Positions 5,486-13,961 of a stretch of 54,191 bases of DNA are shown piece by piece (the first letter of the stretch is position 1; every line of letters begins with the position of its first letter). Below the pieces are notes generated by a model, which did not search any database, was not told the DNA's origin, and saw nothing but the letters and a program-made list of their open reading frames with translations. Source of the DNA: Saprospira grandis DSM 2844 (lineage in GTDB: Bacteria; Bacteroidota; Bacteroidia; Chitinophagales; Saprospiraceae); NCBI GenBank assembly GCA_945888475.1, contig CAMDAB010000007.1:1-54191 (forward strand). Direction: 5' to 3'. A program made the position numbers and the translations under genes.

Positions 5486-5515
5486 AAAGTCATCGCCAAA
5501 AATGACGATGACTTT
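5486..5515 (-). terminator. Intrinsic terminator of the 1552-aa SprB-repeat gene
   Basis: A perfect 10-bp stem, AAAGTCATCG (5486-5495) with CGATGACTTT (5506-5515), has a 10-nt loop. A run of A on its left becomes the T tract on the minus strand. It lies about 30 nt after the stop codon and probably ends the three-gene unit that starts at 13467. Confidence 0.85.
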
Positions 5516-5546: not shown

Positions 5547-8500
5547 CTATCTTTTAATATTCATTTTTCCAGTTCCTAAGACCTTGCCAGTTTCGTCGCT
5601 AAGAATGACAAAATAGTTGGCGCTGTTGAGTCTGCTGATCTCTAATGTGGTTGCTCCAACTTTTTCTGTGAGTGGCTTGATTGAAATTTGATTTCCATTG
5701 ACATCGAGCACAGATAAGACAAGCTTTGAATCAGAATTGCCTGCATAATTTACAGTAGCAGTGGTCGAAGATTTGTCAATACTTACCAATACGTAATTGT
5801 TGGCAGTACTTGCAACGCTTCTGTTTCCTGTAAGTCCGTTGTTGTTGTTACAATCGAGATTGATAGTGAACTGACCGATACATTCTTGAATACAGCCATT
5901 GGAATCTGTGGCATAGTATGCATAGATACCAGCCTGGAGACCTGTAAACAAGCCAGTATTGTTAGATACTGTATTGCTTTGACCTACACCAGCCAATCCA
6001 AAAGTAAATGGAGTAGTTCCACCGCTGGCAGTTATGGTAGCAGAACCATCGTTACCAATGCAGGTTTCGTTTGAACTGCTTTCGAGGCTAACCAAAATCT
6101 GATCTGGTTGGGTTACAATAACATTGGACACCTGTACGCAACCTTTTACATCTGTAGCAGTAACTGCGTAAGTTCCAGCGCAAAGACCACTTATACTGGC
6201 AGTATTTTCTCCATTGCTCCAAACAAAAGTTAAAGCCGGAACAGTACCTGAAACGGTAGCAGTTCCATTGCAATCGCCAAAACAAGTAACCGGGGTTGAG
6301 CTAGTCCTGATGGTAAATGAAAGTGTACCGTTCAATGTAACTGAAACAGAGGCTCTACAGCCATTAGCATCGGTTACGTTTACAGTATAAACTCCGTTTG
6401 GAAGTCCACTGAAAATATTTGATGCATTGCCAAGTCCATTAACCTGATAAGTAAACGGAGCAGTTCCACCTGTCACTGCGATTTCGAAGGAGCCATTGCT
6501 CAAACCGCAGCTTGGTTGAATTACATTGGAAGCTACCGCGCTGAGAGCCTCAGGTGTAGTAATTTCAGCACGTACAATAGCTGTACAATTATTGGCGTCG
6601 CTAACAGTTACCTGGTAAGTGCCGGTAGCAAGGTTGTTAAAGACATTGCTGCTAACATTTCCGTTGCCAATATTGAATTGGTATGCAGGAGTTCCGCCGC
6701 TTACAGCAACTTCAAAGCTTCCGTTGTTATTGCCACAAAGTGACTGTGTTACATTGATTGAATTAGCTGTAAGTTGAGCAGGTGCTGTAATTTCGGCAGT
6801 TACAACTGTACTGCAATTGTTGGCATCTGTAATCTCAACTGTGTAAGTTCCTACATTCAACCCACTGAATACATTAGCGCTGTATGCAATGCCATTGAGG
6901 TTGTAAACAAATGGCGCTGTTCCTCCTGTAACATTTATTTCAAAGCCTCCATTGCTGTTTCCGCAAAGTGCCTGAGTTAGATTTGCAACAGTTGCCTCGA
7001 GTGGGGCAGGAGTCGTAATTGTAGCGATAACACTGTTTGAACAATTATTAGCATCTGTAACAACCACGGTGTAAGTTCCTGCGGCAAGTCCGCTGAATAC
7101 ATTTCCGGAAGCTGCATTTCCATTGATTGTGTAGCTGTATGGAGCTGTTCCACCACTTGCACTTACTGTAAATCCACCATTAGAATTGCCACAGAGTTCC
7201 TGCGTCAAGCCTCCGATTGTAGCCACGAGAGGAGCTGGAGCTGTAACAGTTGTGCTAAGTGTAAAGGAACAACCGTTAGCATCAAGCACGGCTACCTGAT
7301 AAGTACCAGAACTGAGACCGGTGAATACATTGTTGGCTACAAAACCACTTCCAATTGAGTAAAGGTATGGGGCTGTTCCTCCATTCACATTTACAGTAAT
7401 TGAACCGCCAGTAGAATTAGCATCTGCACATAGTACACTGGTAGCTGTTGCAGTAGCAGAAATTGGAGTTACTGAACCGTTAATTTCAAAAGTAAAGTTT
7501 GAACAATCTGGCTGACAACCTGCAGCATCACTCACTACTAAACTGTATGAGCCCGCAGTTAAATTTGTAAATATGCCTGTATTGTTAGTGAATATTTCAC
7601 CCGTAGTGTTGTTAATCACCGTAAAATTATAGGGAGCAGTGCCTCCGCTTACTGTAATGAAGGCGACGCCATCGTTCAGGCTGCACACTAGATCTTTAAC
7701 ATCTGTAATCGAAATTTCCAACTGACAAGGAAGCGGATCAACAATAATAGTGTAAGTAAAAGTATTAACTCCACCACAACTGTCGCTAACGCTTACAGTA
7801 AAGACATTGGTGCCAACATCAGCCGAGGTCGGTGTCCAGCAGAAGTTACCTGCAGGAAAGGGTGAGCCAGCGCTTGTAAATACTGCTGAAGGAATTTCAT
7901 TATTATAATTAAGTCCTAGTACAATACCACTTTGCGGATTATTGGAGTTGATTCTGAAGCAGAGTTGCTGTCCAACAGTGGCAGTTGTCTGATAACTGTT
8001 TGTTCCGTCAATACCTGACAAAGTGCTCAAGCCTGGCTGGAAGACAGATACATTGATAGGTAGTCTTACAGAGCTTATACAGTTACTCGAGATTCCTTCT
8101 GTAACATAATAAATGGTGTTGCCGGCAATGGAAGTATTTGGTGTAATCTGGCTGCTTGCAGAACCACCTGTTGGAGTAGTGTAGAATAAAAGGAAGAAAG
8201 TACTGTCACTAGGCGTTGCAATCAGTGGTGTTGCCACTTCATTCAAGCAATATGTTTGATCATTTGCTGTTGGTGTAGAATTGATTGGAGTAAGAATAAC
8301 GGTAATCGTCAATTCTATGAAACAAGGGGCATTTATACCCTGTGGATAAGCGTAATAAGTATTTGTGCCCGCGATTGCAGGGAAGCCACTGTTGGTATAT
8401 TCTATTGAAGCAGTAGTAACAGGATTTGTATTGAAAAATCTTGTACCTAAAGGAAATGAACCGCTTATCTGAGAGGTTGCTATCGTTGTAGCGCTATCAA

Positions 8501-10205
8501 GGTTACAGAATGTAAAACTATAGCTTGGCGTAACATTCTGACAGTTGGCCTGTACAAATGCTGCAGCATTTATCGGAACATTAATTGGATTGGTAATTGG
8601 TTGGCCGCTACAAGAACCGCTCTGTTGGAAGCCCGATACAAAGGGCTCGATCAAGTTTGTATTTGTAATAGCGCCTACACCGGATATTGTACCGTTTACA
8701 CTGATTTGTTCGCTGCAATTGGCATTGTTCAAAATGATGCATTCCGTTGTGGCACTCAGATTGTAGCTTAGAGTAGCCAATACCGTATTAGGGTTTGTAG
8801 GAAGTGGCAGATTACCAATATTCCAAACAATTGATCCATTTCCACCCAGGGTAGGATTAAAGAATGGCGCAGATCCTGAATTTGGTGTGAAAAAATATTG
8901 TCCGTTGGCATTTACAAAATTGGCATTGTAAGGAACAGGAATGATGATTTGACCATTCACAACATCCTCTGAGCCAATATTTTTAATGTCGAGCTCATAA
9001 GTCAGATTTTGACCGGGTAAAATGGAAGGCGAAGCTGAAGCAGGAATTCCATTAGTTTGTGTAAGTGTATTGATACCGATAATATCGGGTTCATAGGCAT
9101 CGACCGAGAATACAATACCGAAGATAATATAGGTGTCCTGATTGGATCCGTAACGGAAAGTAGTGGACGTTTGATTATTGCCTATGATAGAGTTATTGAC
9201 ATTTGGCAAGTCGAAAACACTGATGTCTAGGCCTGTATTATTCAGAAGATTTGGATTTCTGGTATTGTTACCAGTGAAAATTGATGAGTTGAAGAAATTA
9301 GTTGTACTGTTCCCGCCATGCTCGAGATCTACCCATGCTGTATTTGCCGCATTTCTTATCTGAAAAAAGTCGCCTGAAATCTGACGGTCGCCTTCTCCGG
9401 CGATAAGGCCCATTTTGACATTTACAGGCCCACTTTGAGTAGCATTAAAACCAGACAAAGGAATCGTAAAATCGGCAGTAACATTCCCTGCAACGAAGGC
9501 ATGACCATCGAATACGGTGATATCTCTCAATCTCATATTGTTATTGCTGTAAATTACTACAAGGCTCCAGCCACCGTAGAAACCTGTAGTGCCCCCTGCA
9601 CCCTCAATCAAAGCAATATCTGCCACTGTATAGGCTCCCAATACTCCGTTATTTCTTACATAGTCGGTAACCTCTGCAAATGCCGAGTACATAAAGCCAT
9701 CTCCATTTTGAGGATAATAAATATCAGAAGTAGTGGCAATAACATCAGTATATGCGCTTGAAGAAGGCCCTTTTAATTTAATTTTCTGTTTGTCGAAATT
9801 GACAGTTACGCCATTTTTAGTAACAGGAAAAGTATTGGGGCTACTTGGTCCGTTGCTGGCACGACCTGTCCAATAAAGACCGGCAAAAACAACTTCAGAA
9901 CAGGCAGGAACGGCACCATTTTCGGTAGAGAAATTCAAATTTGCCGAAGATGAGTTTAGGGTCGCAGAATCGTTGTCGATATCAACATAAACCATTGAAT
10001 TCTGATTGCCGCTATTGTCAGAATAGTTCTGCAAGCTAAGATTTGTATTTCCAATCATTGTAAAGTCACCCTTCACATTGTAGATAGAAACACCTGGGTT
10101 GAACGGAGAAGTTCTCTGTGTAAATGGTCTAATCAACTGAGCATTTGCTGTGCCAATGCCTAGTAGAATAAAGATCATCAATAGAAAGTTTTTTAAGATG
10201 CTCAT
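5547..10205 (-). CDS. Giant SprB-repeat T9SS surface protein (1552 aa)
   Basis: Secreted adhesin-like protein. The signal peptide is residues 1-22 (ends TANA/Q). Residues about 25-340 are a distinct N-terminal domain (motifs 'VVFAGLYWTGR', 'GGWSLVVIYSN') that I cannot name. A DUF11-like module follows at about 345-490, then Ig-like segments, a cadherin/Ig-like domain from about 730 ('SGIDGTNSYQTTATVGQQLCF'), and eight SprB-type units (GGTAPY...GTY.V.V.DANGC) at about 835-1450. A type A-like sorting tail is at about 1465-1552 (ends GTGKMNIKR). SprB repeats are known from the Flavobacterium johnsoniae gliding adhesin; adhesion or gliding here is inference. It is the last gene of an apparent operon with 10254-10757 and 10822-13467. 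From the Ig-like domain onward it is a paralog of the latter. Confidence 0.92.
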   Translation of the reverse strand: MSILKNFLLMIFILLGIGTANAQLIRPFTQRTSPFNPGVSIYNVKGDFTMIGNTNLSLQNYSDNSGNQNSMVYVDIDNDSATLNSSSANLNFSTENGAVPACSEVVFAGLYWTGRASNGPSSPNTFPVTKNGVTVNFDKQKIKLKGPSSSAYTDVIATTSDIYYPQNGDGFMYSAFAEVTDYVRNNGVLGAYTVADIALIEGAGGTTGFYGGWSLVVIYSNNNMRLRDITVFDGHAFVAGNVTADFTIPLSGFNATQSGPVNVKMGLIAGEGDRQISGDFFQIRNAANTAWVDLEHGGNSTTNFFNSSIFTGNNTRNPNLLNNTGLDISVFDLPNVNNSIIGNNQTSTTFRYGSNQDTYIIFGIVFSVDAYEPDIIGINTLTQTNGIPASASPSILPGQNLTYELDIKNIGSEDVVNGQIIIPVPYNANFVNANGQYFFTPNSGSAPFFNPTLGGNGSIVWNIGNLPLPTNPNTVLATLSYNLSATTECIILNNANCSEQISVNGTISGVGAITNTNLIEPFVSGFQQSGSCSGQPITNPINVPINAAAFVQANCQNVTPSYSFTFCNLDSATTIATSQISGSFPLGTRFFNTNPVTTASIEYTNSGFPAIAGTNTYYAYPQGINAPCFIELTITVILTPINSTPTANDQTYCLNEVATPLIATPSDSTFFLLFYTTPTGGSASSQITPNTSIAGNTIYYVTEGISSNCISSVRLPINVSVFQPGLSTLSGIDGTNSYQTTATVGQQLCFRINSNNPQSGIVLGLNYNNEIPSAVFTSAGSPFPAGNFCWTPTSADVGTNVFTVSVSDSCGGVNTFTYTIIVDPLPCQLEISITDVKDLVCSLNDGVAFITVSGGTAPYNFTVINNTTGEIFTNNTGIFTNLTAGSYSLVVSDAAGCQPDCSNFTFEINGSVTPISATATATSVLCADANSTGGSITVNVNGGTAPYLYSIGSGFVANNVFTGLSSGTYQVAVLDANGCSFTLSTTVTAPAPLVATIGGLTQELCGNSNGGFTVSASGGTAPYSYTINGNAASGNVFSGLAAGTYTVVVTDANNCSNSVIATITTPAPLEATVANLTQALCGNSNGGFEINVTGGTAPFVYNLNGIAYSANVFSGLNVGTYTVEITDANNCSTVVTAEITAPAQLTANSINVTQSLCGNNNGSFEVAVSGGTPAYQFNIGNGNVSSNVFNNLATGTYQVTVSDANNCTAIVRAEITTPEALSAVASNVIQPSCGLSNGSFEIAVTGGTAPFTYQVNGLGNASNIFSGLPNGVYTVNVTDANGCRASVSVTLNGTLSFTIRTSSTPVTCFGDCNGTATVSGTVPALTFVWSNGENTASISGLCAGTYAVTATDVKGCVQVSNVIVTQPDQILVSLESSSNETCIGNDGSATITASGGTTPFTFGLAGVGQSNTVSNNTGLFTGLQAGIYAYYATDSNGCIQECIGQFTINLDCNNNNGLTGNRSVASTANNYVLVSIDKSSTTATVNYAGNSDSKLVLSVLDVNGNQISIKPLTEKVGATTLEISRLNSANYFVILSDETGKVLGTGKMNIKR
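5856..7700 (-). repeat. SprB tandem repeat array, eight units
   Basis: The encoded units share GGTAPY-x-GTYxVxVxDANxC. The four middle units have a period of about 228 bp (76 residues): the GGTAPY-type codons recur near 7141, 6914, 6685 and 6458. The first two and last two units are more divergent and each matches a unit of the neighbouring paralog. Confidence 0.88.
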
Positions 10206-10253
10206 AATATGATGCTTATTTATTATTAGATTTTTTGATAATGATAAATGGGT

Positions 10254-10757
10254 TTACTGAGGGATAGAAACCTCATATAGCAAAACTATATTCGAGTTTT
10301 TAAAATTCGAAACGATGCTTTCAAATGCTGTTGCACTCAGTTGGTATTCCGATCTGATGAGCAAATACTTCAATTTTGGAAAGTTAGCCACAAATTCAGC
10401 ATTCAGTTTAACCTGATTTTCTTCCCCTTTTTTGCTGAGACTTATTTCCATTAGTTCAATATTAGCATAGCTTGTTTGCGCTGTGTTTAACTTTGAGATT
10501 GAAGCAGCATCCGTTTTAAGATAACTTGGCTTGCCTTCCCCGAAAGTTTTTAGATTGCCACTTTCCAAATAAACTGTTGTCTGAAGATTTTTCAACAGTT
10601 TGTTTAAATTTTCAGTATCTGATTTTGCCAAAGTTTTTTGATAATCTGATACCGAGCTAATGCTTTGTGCATTGCTTTGAAATACAAATACAACAAGCAG
10701 TACAAATAAATTTATACCGATGCGCATGTAATTGTGTTGTTTAAGGATAGGTCTCAT
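10254..10757 (-). CDS. Small secreted hypothetical protein (167 aa)
   Basis: I do not recognise this family. A hydrophobic segment ending SNAQ looks like a Sec signal peptide. It fits better if translation starts at the second Met (residue 11, MRIGINLF, position 10727) than at the first ATG used here. The mature part is about 130 residues, Lys/Ser/Asn-rich, without cysteine, and looks alpha/beta. It contains 'LIRSEYQLSATAFESI' near the C-terminus but no sorting tail. It sits between two SprB-type giants, 64 nt after one and 48 nt before the other, with no terminator on either side, so it is probably co-transcribed with them. It could be a periplasmic accessory of those exported proteins; that is inference from position only. 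Confidence 0.7.
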   Translation of the reverse strand: MRPILKQHNYMRIGINLFVLLVVFVFQSNAQSISSVSDYQKTLAKSDTENLNKLLKNLQTTVYLESGNLKTFGEGKPSYLKTDAASISKLNTAQTSYANIELMEISLSKKGEENQVKLNAEFVANFPKLKYLLIRSEYQLSATAFESIVSNFKNSNIVLLYEVSIPQ

Positions 10758-10821
10758 AAATTAAATAATTTAAAGTAATTAAGGTAGATTTTGAAAAGAT
10801 GATTTGATTTTTATTGTATGC

Positions 10822-13467
10822 CTATTTTACGATCAGTAATCTTGAAGTTTCCAGAATTTCACCGTTTTTGTTCCTGAGGATAACTATGTAGGTGGATGCA
10901 GCCCAATTGTTTACATCGAGGTCAATTTCTCCTTCATTGTTATCTGCGCTGCGTTCGAACAATGATTTTCCGTTATTGTCGATTATGCTGATTATAACTG
11001 CATCATCGCTATTTGTTCTGTAAGAAATTTTGACAAAAGAATTAGCCGGATTCGGACTCAAGCCGATATAGTTTTCTTTTAGTCCGCTTAAGACATTGAT
11101 ACCGTTGTTTTGACAGACTCTTCTTATTCGTAAGCTTATTATCTGACTCAAACAATTGTTGGCATCGCTTACGCTATACCTATACTGACCTGCAGGTAAC
11201 CCGTTGAAAATACCATTTGTATTTGTAAAAGTATTCCCTGCACTGTTTGTCAGACTGAAGTTGTAGGGAGCAGTTCCGCCAGCGGCCTGAATTCTGATAC
11301 TGCCATCAGATCCGACACAGGTTTCATTTGTAATTGCCAAGGTGCGCACCGTAAGTCTGGCAGGCTCTCTTACAGTTACCCTACTTACCCTGGTGCAGCC
11401 AAAATTGTCGGTTGCTGTTACGCTATAGTTCCCTCTGCATAGATTTGTAATAGTTGCTCCGCTCTGGCCATTGCTCCAAACAAAGGTGGCGGGTACATTT
11501 GAACTTGCCGTTGCTGTGCCGTTGCAGGCACCATTGCAGCTTATGGTAGTAGCTGTTGTTGTAACTACAAAAACAGGATTTCCGTTGAGTTGAATTGTAG
11601 TATTAAACGTACAATTATTGGCATCGCGAACAATTACATTGTAAGTGCCGCCGCCTAAATTTGTAATGACATTGCTATTGTAAACAATGTTGTTAACCTG
11701 GTATTGATAGGGAGCAGTCCCTCCGATTGGCGATATGGTAAATCGCCCGTTTCTTCTGCCGCAGGCTGGCTGTATGACATTGATAATTCCTGCAGTAAGT
11801 GCAACAGGAGCGCTAATTGTTATTGTCTGATTGCTGTAACAACCATTTGCATCCATTACAATGGTCTGGTATGTTCCGCTTGCGAGACCATTAAAAATAT
11901 TTGAATTAGAAAAACCATTGCCAATAGAATAAAGGTAAGGAGCTGTGCCCCCATTAGCCGTTAATGTAATAATGCCACCAAAAGTATTGGGTGCAGGACA
12001 CAAATTTACAGAACCTTGAGCAGTATGTGTGAGCGTAGTAGCGCTGCCTCCAATCTGAAAACTGAGATTACTACAGTTTGGCTGACAACTGTTGCTGTCT
12101 GATACCACAATGCTGTAATTGCCTGCAGTGAGATTATTAAAAATACCGCTATTGTTGCTGTATATCAGACCATTGCTGTTATTAATTACAGTAAATGAAT
12201 AAGGAGCTGTACCTCCACCGGCAGTAATCTGCGCTGTACCATCGCTGTTGCTGCACCTCAAATCGCCAAAACTGACCAATGTTACATTGATTGCACAAGG
12301 AGCAGGCGGGCTAGCTGGATTTACATAAATGGAATAAGTATAGGTGTTTTGACCCACAATTGGACAATAATTGTCAGCAACCTGAACCGTAAAGGTATTT
12401 AAACCCGTATCGGCCGGGCTGGCTGTCCAGCAAAAAGTTCCAGTAGGAAAAGGGTTAGAGTTTGAACTGAAGCTGGCCGATGGAATGGCATTGTTGTAGC
12501 TTAAAGTCAACAATTGACCTTGATTCGGATCGCTCGAAAAAATAGTAAAGCAAAGCTGTTGACCAATATTGATTGTAGTGTCGAAGCTGTTGCTGCCATT
12601 TATACCACTGAGACTAGGCGCCTGATTTAAACAATTAACTACGGTGAATTGAATATCTCTGATTACTTCGCCAATTTTAACCCCATTTCTAAACTCTTCG
12701 ACTAAAACACAGACAACCCCAATCTGTAGCGCAGAGGGTGTGAAACTAATAGCACCAGTATTTGCATTGATGTTGATTCCATTTGAACTAATGAGTGGAT
12801 TCTGTGCACTGATCCCCAACTGATTGTTGTATGTAACGGAGGATCCTGCTGCACGTTTGCAGCTAGTAAGTGAATATCTGAGATCATCTCCATCCTGATC
12901 TACAGCGCCATGATTGTAAAATACTGCTTGATTGATACAGGCAAATGGTGTTGGATTGTTCAGAAAAGTGGGAGAATTATTACAGGCACTTAATCCGGTA
13001 TTAATAATTGAACTAATGTACATCTCGTTAGTGCCGGGACTGGTAAGTGTGCTGATTGCATTGTTGCGGCAGCACAGTTGCCAGCCCAAGGTCCAGATGC
13101 TGCAAGTGCTAGGCAGACTCACTGTTCCTTCATATATAAATCTTTGAATTCCAAATTGACCATTGCCCCCATTGCAGGCAGTTCCAACTATGCCAGGACA
13201 ACTGGGTGTAATTTCAGTAACTGATATAAGCGGCAGATTTAGTGTAAAAGATGCACAACCTGGAGAAGATATAGATATTGATTCAATACTATCGGCATTT
13301 ATGCCATTACAATCTCTGTAAAACTGCAGTTTTACCCTGTATTGATTGTTGCCGATGCAATTGTAAGTTAAATCAGCACCCATGGCATGAGTTGCATATA
13401 AATTTTCAGCCAGTGTTGTACTTAGCAATAATGTCAGCAAGATGTACTTGTAAAAATTCAAAATCAT
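10822..13467 (-). CDS. SprB-repeat T9SS surface protein with 'THAMGADLTY' N-terminal domain (881 aa)
   Basis: Start chosen at the ATG at 13467 (MILNFYKYILL...) because it opens directly with a signal peptide; the frame extends 17 codons further upstream to 13518. After the signal peptide comes the domain beginning THAMGADLTY (about 25-265, with 'FYRDCNG'), which recurs in large Bacteroidota surface proteins. An Ig/cadherin-like domain follows at about 285-395 ('SGINGSNSFDTTINIGQQLCF'), then five SprB-like units at about 397-782 and a type A T9SS tail at about 800-881 (LSPNPANSFVKISY ... STYIVILRN). Everything from the Ig-like domain onward is paralogous to the 1552-aa protein downstream. It is the first gene of a likely three-gene unit. 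Role: exported, probably cell-surface. Confidence 0.9.
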   Translation of the reverse strand: MILNFYKYILLTLLLSTTLAENLYATHAMGADLTYNCIGNNQYRVKLQFYRDCNGINADSIESISISSPGCASFTLNLPLISVTEITPSCPGIVGTACNGGNGQFGIQRFIYEGTVSLPSTCSIWTLGWQLCCRNNAISTLTSPGTNEMYISSIINTGLSACNNSPTFLNNPTPFACINQAVFYNHGAVDQDGDDLRYSLTSCKRAAGSSVTYNNQLGISAQNPLISSNGININANTGAISFTPSALQIGVVCVLVEEFRNGVKIGEVIRDIQFTVVNCLNQAPSLSGINGSNSFDTTINIGQQLCFTIFSSDPNQGQLLTLSYNNAIPSASFSSNSNPFPTGTFCWTASPADTGLNTFTVQVADNYCPIVGQNTYTYSIYVNPASPPAPCAINVTLVSFGDLRCSNSDGTAQITAGGGTAPYSFTVINNSNGLIYSNNSGIFNNLTAGNYSIVVSDSNSCQPNCSNLSFQIGGSATTLTHTAQGSVNLCPAPNTFGGIITLTANGGTAPYLYSIGNGFSNSNIFNGLASGTYQTIVMDANGCYSNQTITISAPVALTAGIINVIQPACGRRNGRFTISPIGGTAPYQYQVNNIVYNSNVITNLGGGTYNVIVRDANNCTFNTTIQLNGNPVFVVTTTATTISCNGACNGTATASSNVPATFVWSNGQSGATITNLCRGNYSVTATDNFGCTRVSRVTVREPARLTVRTLAITNETCVGSDGSIRIQAAGGTAPYNFSLTNSAGNTFTNTNGIFNGLPAGQYRYSVSDANNCLSQIISLRIRRVCQNNGINVLSGLKENYIGLSPNPANSFVKISYRTNSDDAVIISIIDNNGKSLFERSADNNEGEIDLDVNNWAASTYIVILRNKNGEILETSRLLIVK
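11120..12275 (-). repeat. SprB tandem repeat array, five units
   Basis: Five encoded SprB-like units. Unit 1 (C-rich, CQPNCSN), unit 2 (YLYSIGNGF), unit 4 (FVWSNGQ) and unit 5 (NFSLTNS) each have a counterpart in the same order in the 1552-aa protein, which has three extra middle units. Confidence 0.82.
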
Positions 13468-13725
13468 ATATTGGGCGCGGTGTTTTGGGTTAGGTATGCG
13501 GCGTTCAGTTAAGAACAATTAAAATAAAATTTTGATTATTATTTTAAAATAAAATTATTCTATATTAAAAATAGGTTAAAAAAATATTAGTTATTCAAGT
13601 TGAAAGCCAAATAAACTTTGGTTTTTATTCACCCACAAAAATATACAATGTTTTTTGATTTTTCCCTTTTCTGTCATCACATGAAGATGTGAAAAATAGT
13701 AAAGCTTTATAATTTTAATTGTTTA

Positions 13726-13903
13726 ACCCAATTCCGTCATTAGAGTTCGTAATGAAGGCCAAAAGTGCGAAGGAAATAAGGGCTCACACAGTTTTTTCGG
13801 GTGAAGGAATAGTCACACCTATTTCAAGCTCGAAAAAACGAGTAAGTGCTTAGTTCCAAAGCAATTATGGGTTGTAATAGAATTTCTAATGACGGATTTG
13901 GGT
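13726..13903. mobile_element. MITE-like element with 19-bp terminal inverted repeats (178 bp)
   Basis: The left end ACCCAATTCCGTCATTAGA (13726-13744) is matched at the right end (13885-13903) by its inverse complement with one mismatch. The flanks carry a short direct duplication (TTA, or TTTAA if the ends are placed one base further in). Inside, GTTTTTTCG (13791-13799) pairs with CGAAAAAAC (13831-13839), and the sequence between them is partly complementary, so the RNA or single strand would fold into a long hairpin. There is no open frame. Ends beginning ACCC are seen in some IS families such as IS982, but I cannot assign a parent element. Confidence 0.6.
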
Positions 13904-13934
13904 TTAACTATTGATTATGACCTAGAAACAAAAA

Positions 13935-13961
13935 GGCCTCAAATTGTGGAAATTTGAGGCC
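13935..13961 (-). terminator. Intrinsic terminator of the 1656-aa gene
   Basis: A perfect 11-bp stem, GGCCTCAAATT (13935-13945) with AATTTGAGGCC (13951-13961), has a 5-nt loop and an A-rich left flank that gives a T tract on the minus strand. It lies about 27 nt past the stop codon. Confidence 0.88.

Follow-up and report, generated by a model that had tools for sequence, protein, structure and literature searches.

The window analysed here, a stretch of DNA of 54,191 nucleotides, carries on its minus strand two adjacent genes for SprB-repeat proteins, one of 1552 amino acids (P1) and one of 881 amino acids (P2). They raise the question of how two neighbouring proteins that resemble each other in their C-terminal parts came by different N-termini and different numbers of repeats. 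A preliminary description had attributed the pair to duplication, domain exchange and tandem amplification inside one operon, and had regarded this as a route to varying surface adhesins. Based on the present data, the pair is a clear example of an ordinary kind of evolution, and its history is much as had been guessed.

Gene layout, surroundings and distribution

Both open reading frames were recovered (Table 1), and that of P2 runs from 10822 to 13518 when read from a TTG. The SprB repeat (PF13573), which is named after SprB, was matched above the curated cut-off of 28 bits in both proteins (131.3 bits for P1, 65.7 bits for P2). Eight SprB stretches in P1 and four in P2 were recognised by the Pfam model, and eight and five by a model of the pair's own 13 units. 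P2 consists of a head, an Ig-like domain, the SprB units A-B-C-D-E and a tail, while P1 consists of a head, an Ig-like domain, the units A-B-M1-M2-M3-C-D-E and a tail. The Ig-like domain of P1 that is shared with P2 matched He_PIG of Pfam weakly (18.5 bits, below the cut-off of 24), and the P1 domain at residues ~381-540, which we take to be DUF11-like, had no Pfam match. Neither protein has a useful solved relative: the search of PDB sequences returned none for P2, and the nine nitrophorin sequences returned for P1 at E-values of 0.1-0.7 were taken as chance matches. Predicted structures of the heads had a mean pLDDT of 30 (P1) and 47 (P2).

Table 1. Positions of the features of the P1/P2 locus in the window.
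Feature	Position	Strand	Remarks
P1, 1552-aa SprB-repeat protein	5547-10205	-	
P1 head module, aa 1-640	8286-10205	-	boundaries approximate; signal-peptide-like start and GLYWTGR domain (~1-380), then ~381-540 domain, then linker domain
P1 Ig_7 domain, aa 641-721	8043-8285	-	PF19081, 27.8 bits (cut-off 27.3)
P1 Ig-like domain common to P2	7728-8042	-	chimera junction near its start
P1 SprB unit A	7473-7727	-	
P1 SprB unit B	7236-7472	-	
P1 extra SprB units M1-M3	6552-7235	-	3 x 228 bp
P1 SprB unit C	6324-6551	-	
P1 SprB unit D	6105-6323	-	FVWSNG
P1 SprB unit E	5853-6104	-	
P1 C-terminal domain	5550-5852	-	probably a divergent type A T9SS sorting domain
167-aa ORF between P1 and P2	10254-10757	-	signal-peptide-like start (by eye)
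P2, 881-aa SprB-repeat protein	10822-13467	-	from ATG
P2 head	12634-13467	-	signal-peptide-like start and HAMGADLTY domain
P2 Ig-like domain	12298-12633	-	
P2 SprB units A-E	11116-12297	-	A 12043-12297, B 11806-12042, C 11578-11805, D 11362-11577, E 11116-11361
P2 type A T9SS sorting domain	10825-11115	-	PF18962 and TIGR04183 over cut-off
Terminator-like hairpin directly after P1 stop	5486-5515	-	13 pairs, T-rich tail; consensus match only
Terminator-like hairpin after upstream 1656-aa gene	13935-13961	-	11 pairs, T-rich tail; consensus match only

Between the two genes lies an ORF for an orphan, secreted-type protein of 167 amino acids, for which no Pfam or NCBIfam match was found at E 0.01. 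The gaps that separate P2, this ORF and P1 measure 64 and 48 bp and hold no terminator-like hairpin; such hairpins were found after the upstream gene for a 1656-aa protein and after P1. The close spacing and the hairpin-free gaps are in line with the single operon that had been proposed. The hairpins themselves lend it less, because terminator-like sites were no commoner in our scan than in shuffled sequences (6 versus 7.4), so that only the length and position of the two speak for them. A weak promoter-like match at 10853-10824, before the 167-aa ORF, counts against it. P1, P2 and the 167-aa ORF may form one operon. An Rfam scan of the window returned a tRNA only.

The 40 genomes searched for the pair included that of the window (G000), and the congeners searched were G001 to G005, of which G004 (record CANETR01) is a Saprospiraceae MAG that is 63% complete. 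Among the matches listed, P2 was found near full-length, at 50% and from residue 11-15 to 879, in G001, G002, G003 and G005, and at 98% in G004 (residues 100-881, where a contig end removes the start). The remaining P2 matches listed cover parts of the protein. The P2 head is 65-66% identical in amino acids to those of the orthologues in four congeneric genomes. Full-length P1 was present only in G000 and G004 (97%) among the matches listed. In the four other congeners the best match of P1 was the P2 orthologue, and the 19 kb around that orthologue contained no P1 and no 167-aa ORF. The 167-aa ORF itself occurred in 2 of the 40 genomes, again G000 and G004.

Close to the pair, at 13722-13909, we observed an element of about 188 bp that is nearly palindromic, has ends like TTAACCCAA...TTGGGTTTAA and folds as RNA at about -63 kcal/mol. 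The genome contains 32 near-identical copies or part copies of it (96-100%, own included), 13 of which begin no more than 3 bases from the start of a contig. It had no match in the five congeneric genomes, in a search that included the incomplete G004 and ran without a positive control. The element looks like a recently spread repeat, presumably of the kind called MITE or REP-type.

A common stalk behind different heads

P1 and P2 were cut into parts by eye and aligned part by part. The shared Ig-like domains have 56 of 105 residues identical, and the same-letter SprB units follow each other collinearly with amino acid identities of 59% (A), 53% (B), 49% (C), 56% (D) and 39% (E). The tails are related as well (25/97 identical, E about 1e-7), and the heads aligned with a negative score. 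The signatures named in the preliminary description are present: the first unit is rich in Cys, SIGxGF occurs in B as LYSIGxGF, and FVWSNG occurs in D. The larger protein has three extra units of 76 aa (228 bp) each, M1 to M3, between B and C. The matching Ig-like domain, the unit order at either end of the array, the related tail and the complete difference before the Ig-like domain were all borne out by this domain-by-domain comparison.

Could the two C-terminal halves have been drawn independently from the SprB pool of the genome and have reached the same order? The raw material for this would be abundant, since SprB matches in the genome number at least 150, the number scored out of 312 candidates. 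We compared the P1 units with a set of 292 units from P1, P2, genus relatives, the SprB proteins of 26 stretches of G000 and three foreign proteins, a set that represents part of the genome's SprB units. Each P1 unit was ranked against 278 others, itself and the 13 copies in G004 being left out. The same-letter unit of P2 was the best partner of A, B and D. The best partner of C was M2 of P1 itself, followed by the C unit of P2, and for E the first five places were taken by the five E units of the P2 family that were scored, that of the P2 in the window being fifth. Outside P1, the best partner was thus the same-position unit of the P2 family for all five units.

A tree of the 292 units (74 columns) was weakly resolved. 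In it, the P1 and P2 copies of A all fell into a single clade, and so did those of B and those of E (SH-aLRT 95, 96 and 85, respectively). The C and D units united P1 with the P2 of G000 and G004 (89 and 94), and those of the other four P2 proteins joined them at zero support. In a tree of Ig, A and B together (26 rows), P1 and all P2 formed one clade with 100/100 support, and the corresponding clade in a tree of C, D and E reached 90/84 only. On the unit ranking, the unit tree and these two clades, the proposed duplication stands, and the C-terminal parts are closer to each other than to other SprB proteins. We give next to no credence to independent recruitment, against which the one-to-one collinear homology of five units, Ig and tail, the Ig+A+B clade and the fact that P1 units score higher with P2 units than with the rest of the SprB set all argue. 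Judged from the alignments and trees, the stalks of P1 and P2 go back to a single ancestral stalk, made of Ig and SprB units, that was duplicated.

The tandem amplification is less firm. M1 to M3 are 66% (M1-M2), 54% (M1-M3) and 51% (M2-M3) identical in amino acids, and 41-50% identical to unit C of P1. They grouped at an SH-aLRT of 85 in the 292-unit tree with one unrelated unit (L021) inside the group, and their link to C had a support of 10. Three extra units with the predicted period are present, and an expansion of the middle units is suggested rather than firmly established.

Origin of the P1 head

Searched for alone, the P1 head was found in 3 of the 40 genomes (G000, G004 and, at 36%, G039), with no match in G001, G002, G003 and G005. 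In wider samples it was found in 41 of 395 genomes of the phylum and 26 of 396 genomes of the order (own included). Close forms of at least 270 bits came from G260, G209, G311, G142, G236 and G256 in the phylum sample and from G543, G692 and G623 in the order sample; the matches in the remaining genomes reached at most 170 bits. In all nine close homologues the match covers residues 1-380 (44-63%) and 381-540 (31-47%), while the Ig_7 domain of P1 was matched in two of the nine (L134/L135, 36-39%). The proteins of G260, G209, G311, G142, G236 and G543 resemble the N-terminal ~530 aa of P1 at 47-58% and differ from it in having other C-terminal parts; at E 0.01 they gave no match with the shared Ig. 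These matches place the P1 head in a module that occurs patchily among the Bacteroidota. Three of the head homologues (L139, L154 and L156) have ~130-150 aa inserted at the site that corresponds to P1 residue 130.

None of 14 head homologues, the nine close ones and five distant ones, matched the shared Ig at E 0.01 (best E-value 0.011); some of their genes run off the stretch analysed. The shared Ig lies directly behind a HAMGADLTY-type head in several other proteins (L042, L041, L038, L037 and L039). Because of these two observations, we place the join in P1 between two Ig-like domains, at about residue 721. A distant head homologue, L140, that matches P2 at 309-622 was considered as a counter-example and set aside, since its match falls within the SprB region and the shared Ig by itself gave nothing significant there. 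From its matches on either side of the join, P1 is a chimera in which a different head was placed on a duplicated P2-type stalk. The exchange of heads that had been proposed is well founded in that the P1 head has homologues of its own with other C-terminal parts.

How this head reached the lineage can be read in two ways. P1 might date back to the origin of the genus or beyond, with an inherited head, and might have been lost from the other four sampled species. Head homologues at 40-46% in G692 and G623, which represent two further genera of the family, a tree constrained to hold the heads of the family together, which is not rejected (p-AU 0.31), and a duplication that tree tests do not separate from the species split are all compatible with this. 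It is opposed by a search of 25 family members, of which only G000 and G004 had the head, and by the head tree with all nine close forms, in which the P1 head grouped with heads from other families (80/86) and those of G692 and G623 formed a pair outside this group (99/97). We consider an old, inherited P1 unlikely, yet worth keeping in view. The strong transfer signal of a first head tree had weakened to the above p-AU after three homologues were added and distant rows were thinned. A horizontal origin of the P1 head is likely, as the reading we prefer rather than as a result of these trees. The full version of it, in which a head module moving among Bacteroidota families was captured horizontally and joined, at the edge of a domain, to a copy of a resident adhesin stalk, yielding an operon of two adhesins with the same stalk and different heads that may pair with the 167-aa protein, is put forward tentatively, at slightly less than even odds.

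Age, repeat number and predicted export

Between G000 and G004, dS was 0.149 for P1 and 0.098 for P2, with an omega of ~0.09 in both, and no unit was gained or lost in either protein. The M units are only 57-64% identical in DNA, with dS values of 1.3-2.8, and dS between units of P1 and P2 was 2.7 or beyond measurement (DNA identity 47-64% over the M-M and P1-P2 pairs). The 228-bp period is a fact at the protein level. By these distances, both the duplication and the expansion greatly predate the G000/G004 pair. Trees that date the duplication before or after the split of the congeners gave no resolution: a P1+P2 clade of G000 and G004 had a p-AU of 0.43, all P2 together 0.25, and the best tree weakly preferred a third grouping (65/61). 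Within P1, residues 541-640 (8286-8585) showed a dS of 0.45 between G000 and G004 compared with 0.14 and 0.05 in the adjoining segments, at low dN; this is perhaps a recombined tract.

These values bear on a more dynamic reading, according to which the pair would be a live contingency locus where slippage or recombination between units varies the repeat number within a population. P1 does carry tandem 76-aa units, and the account in PMC8400371 has the repeat motifs of a gliding-associated protein differing between isolates of F. psychrophilum. Moreover, a giant SprB gene of the genus (L173-L178, 6020-6810 aa, in G001, G002, G003 and G005) has 66, 66, 62 and 56 units in G002, G005, G003 and G001, respectively; its proteins are 94-99% identical and differ by long gaps of 790, 316 and 158 aa, which are multiples of 79. 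Set against this, the unit number is 8 in both P1 proteins and 5 in all six P2 proteins, including those of the four genomes in which the giant gene varies. Tandem Repeats Finder reported no array at the P1 repeats, and the dS of the M units exceeds by far the 0.10-0.15 between the two genomes. A slippage-prone array is not supported by these data, and we hold a live contingency locus to be very improbable. Repeat number varies in the genus, and no such change was seen at P1/P2. The proposed route to varying surface adhesins therefore found no support in the genomes compared, two of which carry P1; the rebuilding of the pair looks old and now stable rather than like a live switch for surface change.

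With regard to export, the P2 tail exceeded the cut-offs of both type A sorting-domain families (PF18962, 37.7 bits; TIGR04183, 26.6 bits). The P1 tail reached 17.3 bits against Por_Secre_tail (PF18962; E 0.0058, cut-off 27), had no TIGR04183 match at E 0.01, and is placed as a divergent homologue of the P2 tail by the alignment above. The genome encodes SprA (2434 bits), a protein of the PorV family (401 bits) and at least 150 TIGR04183 matches. The gliding adhesin SprB of Flavobacterium johnsoniae is, like P1 and P2, a surface protein with the SprB repeat exported by the T9SS, export being predicted for P1 and P2; it has many more repeats, and SprB proper has a gene for an SprF-type carrier alongside. 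No SprF-type carrier was found among the five neighbouring proteins scanned here. All sorting-domain matches of P1 and P2 were of type A, and neither protein had the type B domain of SprB proper. In the account of PMC10994853, PorV carries type A substrates, and SprB itself has a type B sorting domain and uses an alternative carrier, in which it differs from P1 and P2 with their type A or type A-like tails. The gliding role is that of F. johnsoniae SprB. P1 and P2 are probably T9SS-exported cell-surface proteins and, by family resemblance, adhesins.

We put a probability of roughly 80% on a history in which duplication of a P2-type gene, a new head and added units led to two surface proteins that were both kept. 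P2 would be the resident gene of the genus, with its HAMGADLTY head, Ig, five SprB units and type A sorting domain. Its Ig-to-tail part would have been duplicated at about the time this lineage left the other sampled congeners, and the duplicate would have received a different head module of the Bacteroidota, one that brought an Ig_7 of its own, the junction falling between domains close to P1 residue 721. Three middle units would have been added to P1, and purifying selection would then have kept both genes, with two heads on a common stalk. The proteins, probably co-transcribed with the small secreted-type protein, would be exported by Sec and then translocated by the T9SS, in which they would pass through SprA and be carried by PorV. 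The SprB stalk would display the head, which would bind a putative ligand, possibly a different one for each protein, and the three extra units would give P1 a longer reach.

P1 and P2 offer a clear case of surface diversification in the Bacteroidota, in which the head changes by module exchange and the units of the stalk remain position-specific. Within one genus, SprB proteins behave in two ways: the short arrays have diverged and stay constant, and the giant array gains and loses units. This contrast between short and giant arrays suggests a testable rule on which SprB proteins vary in length.
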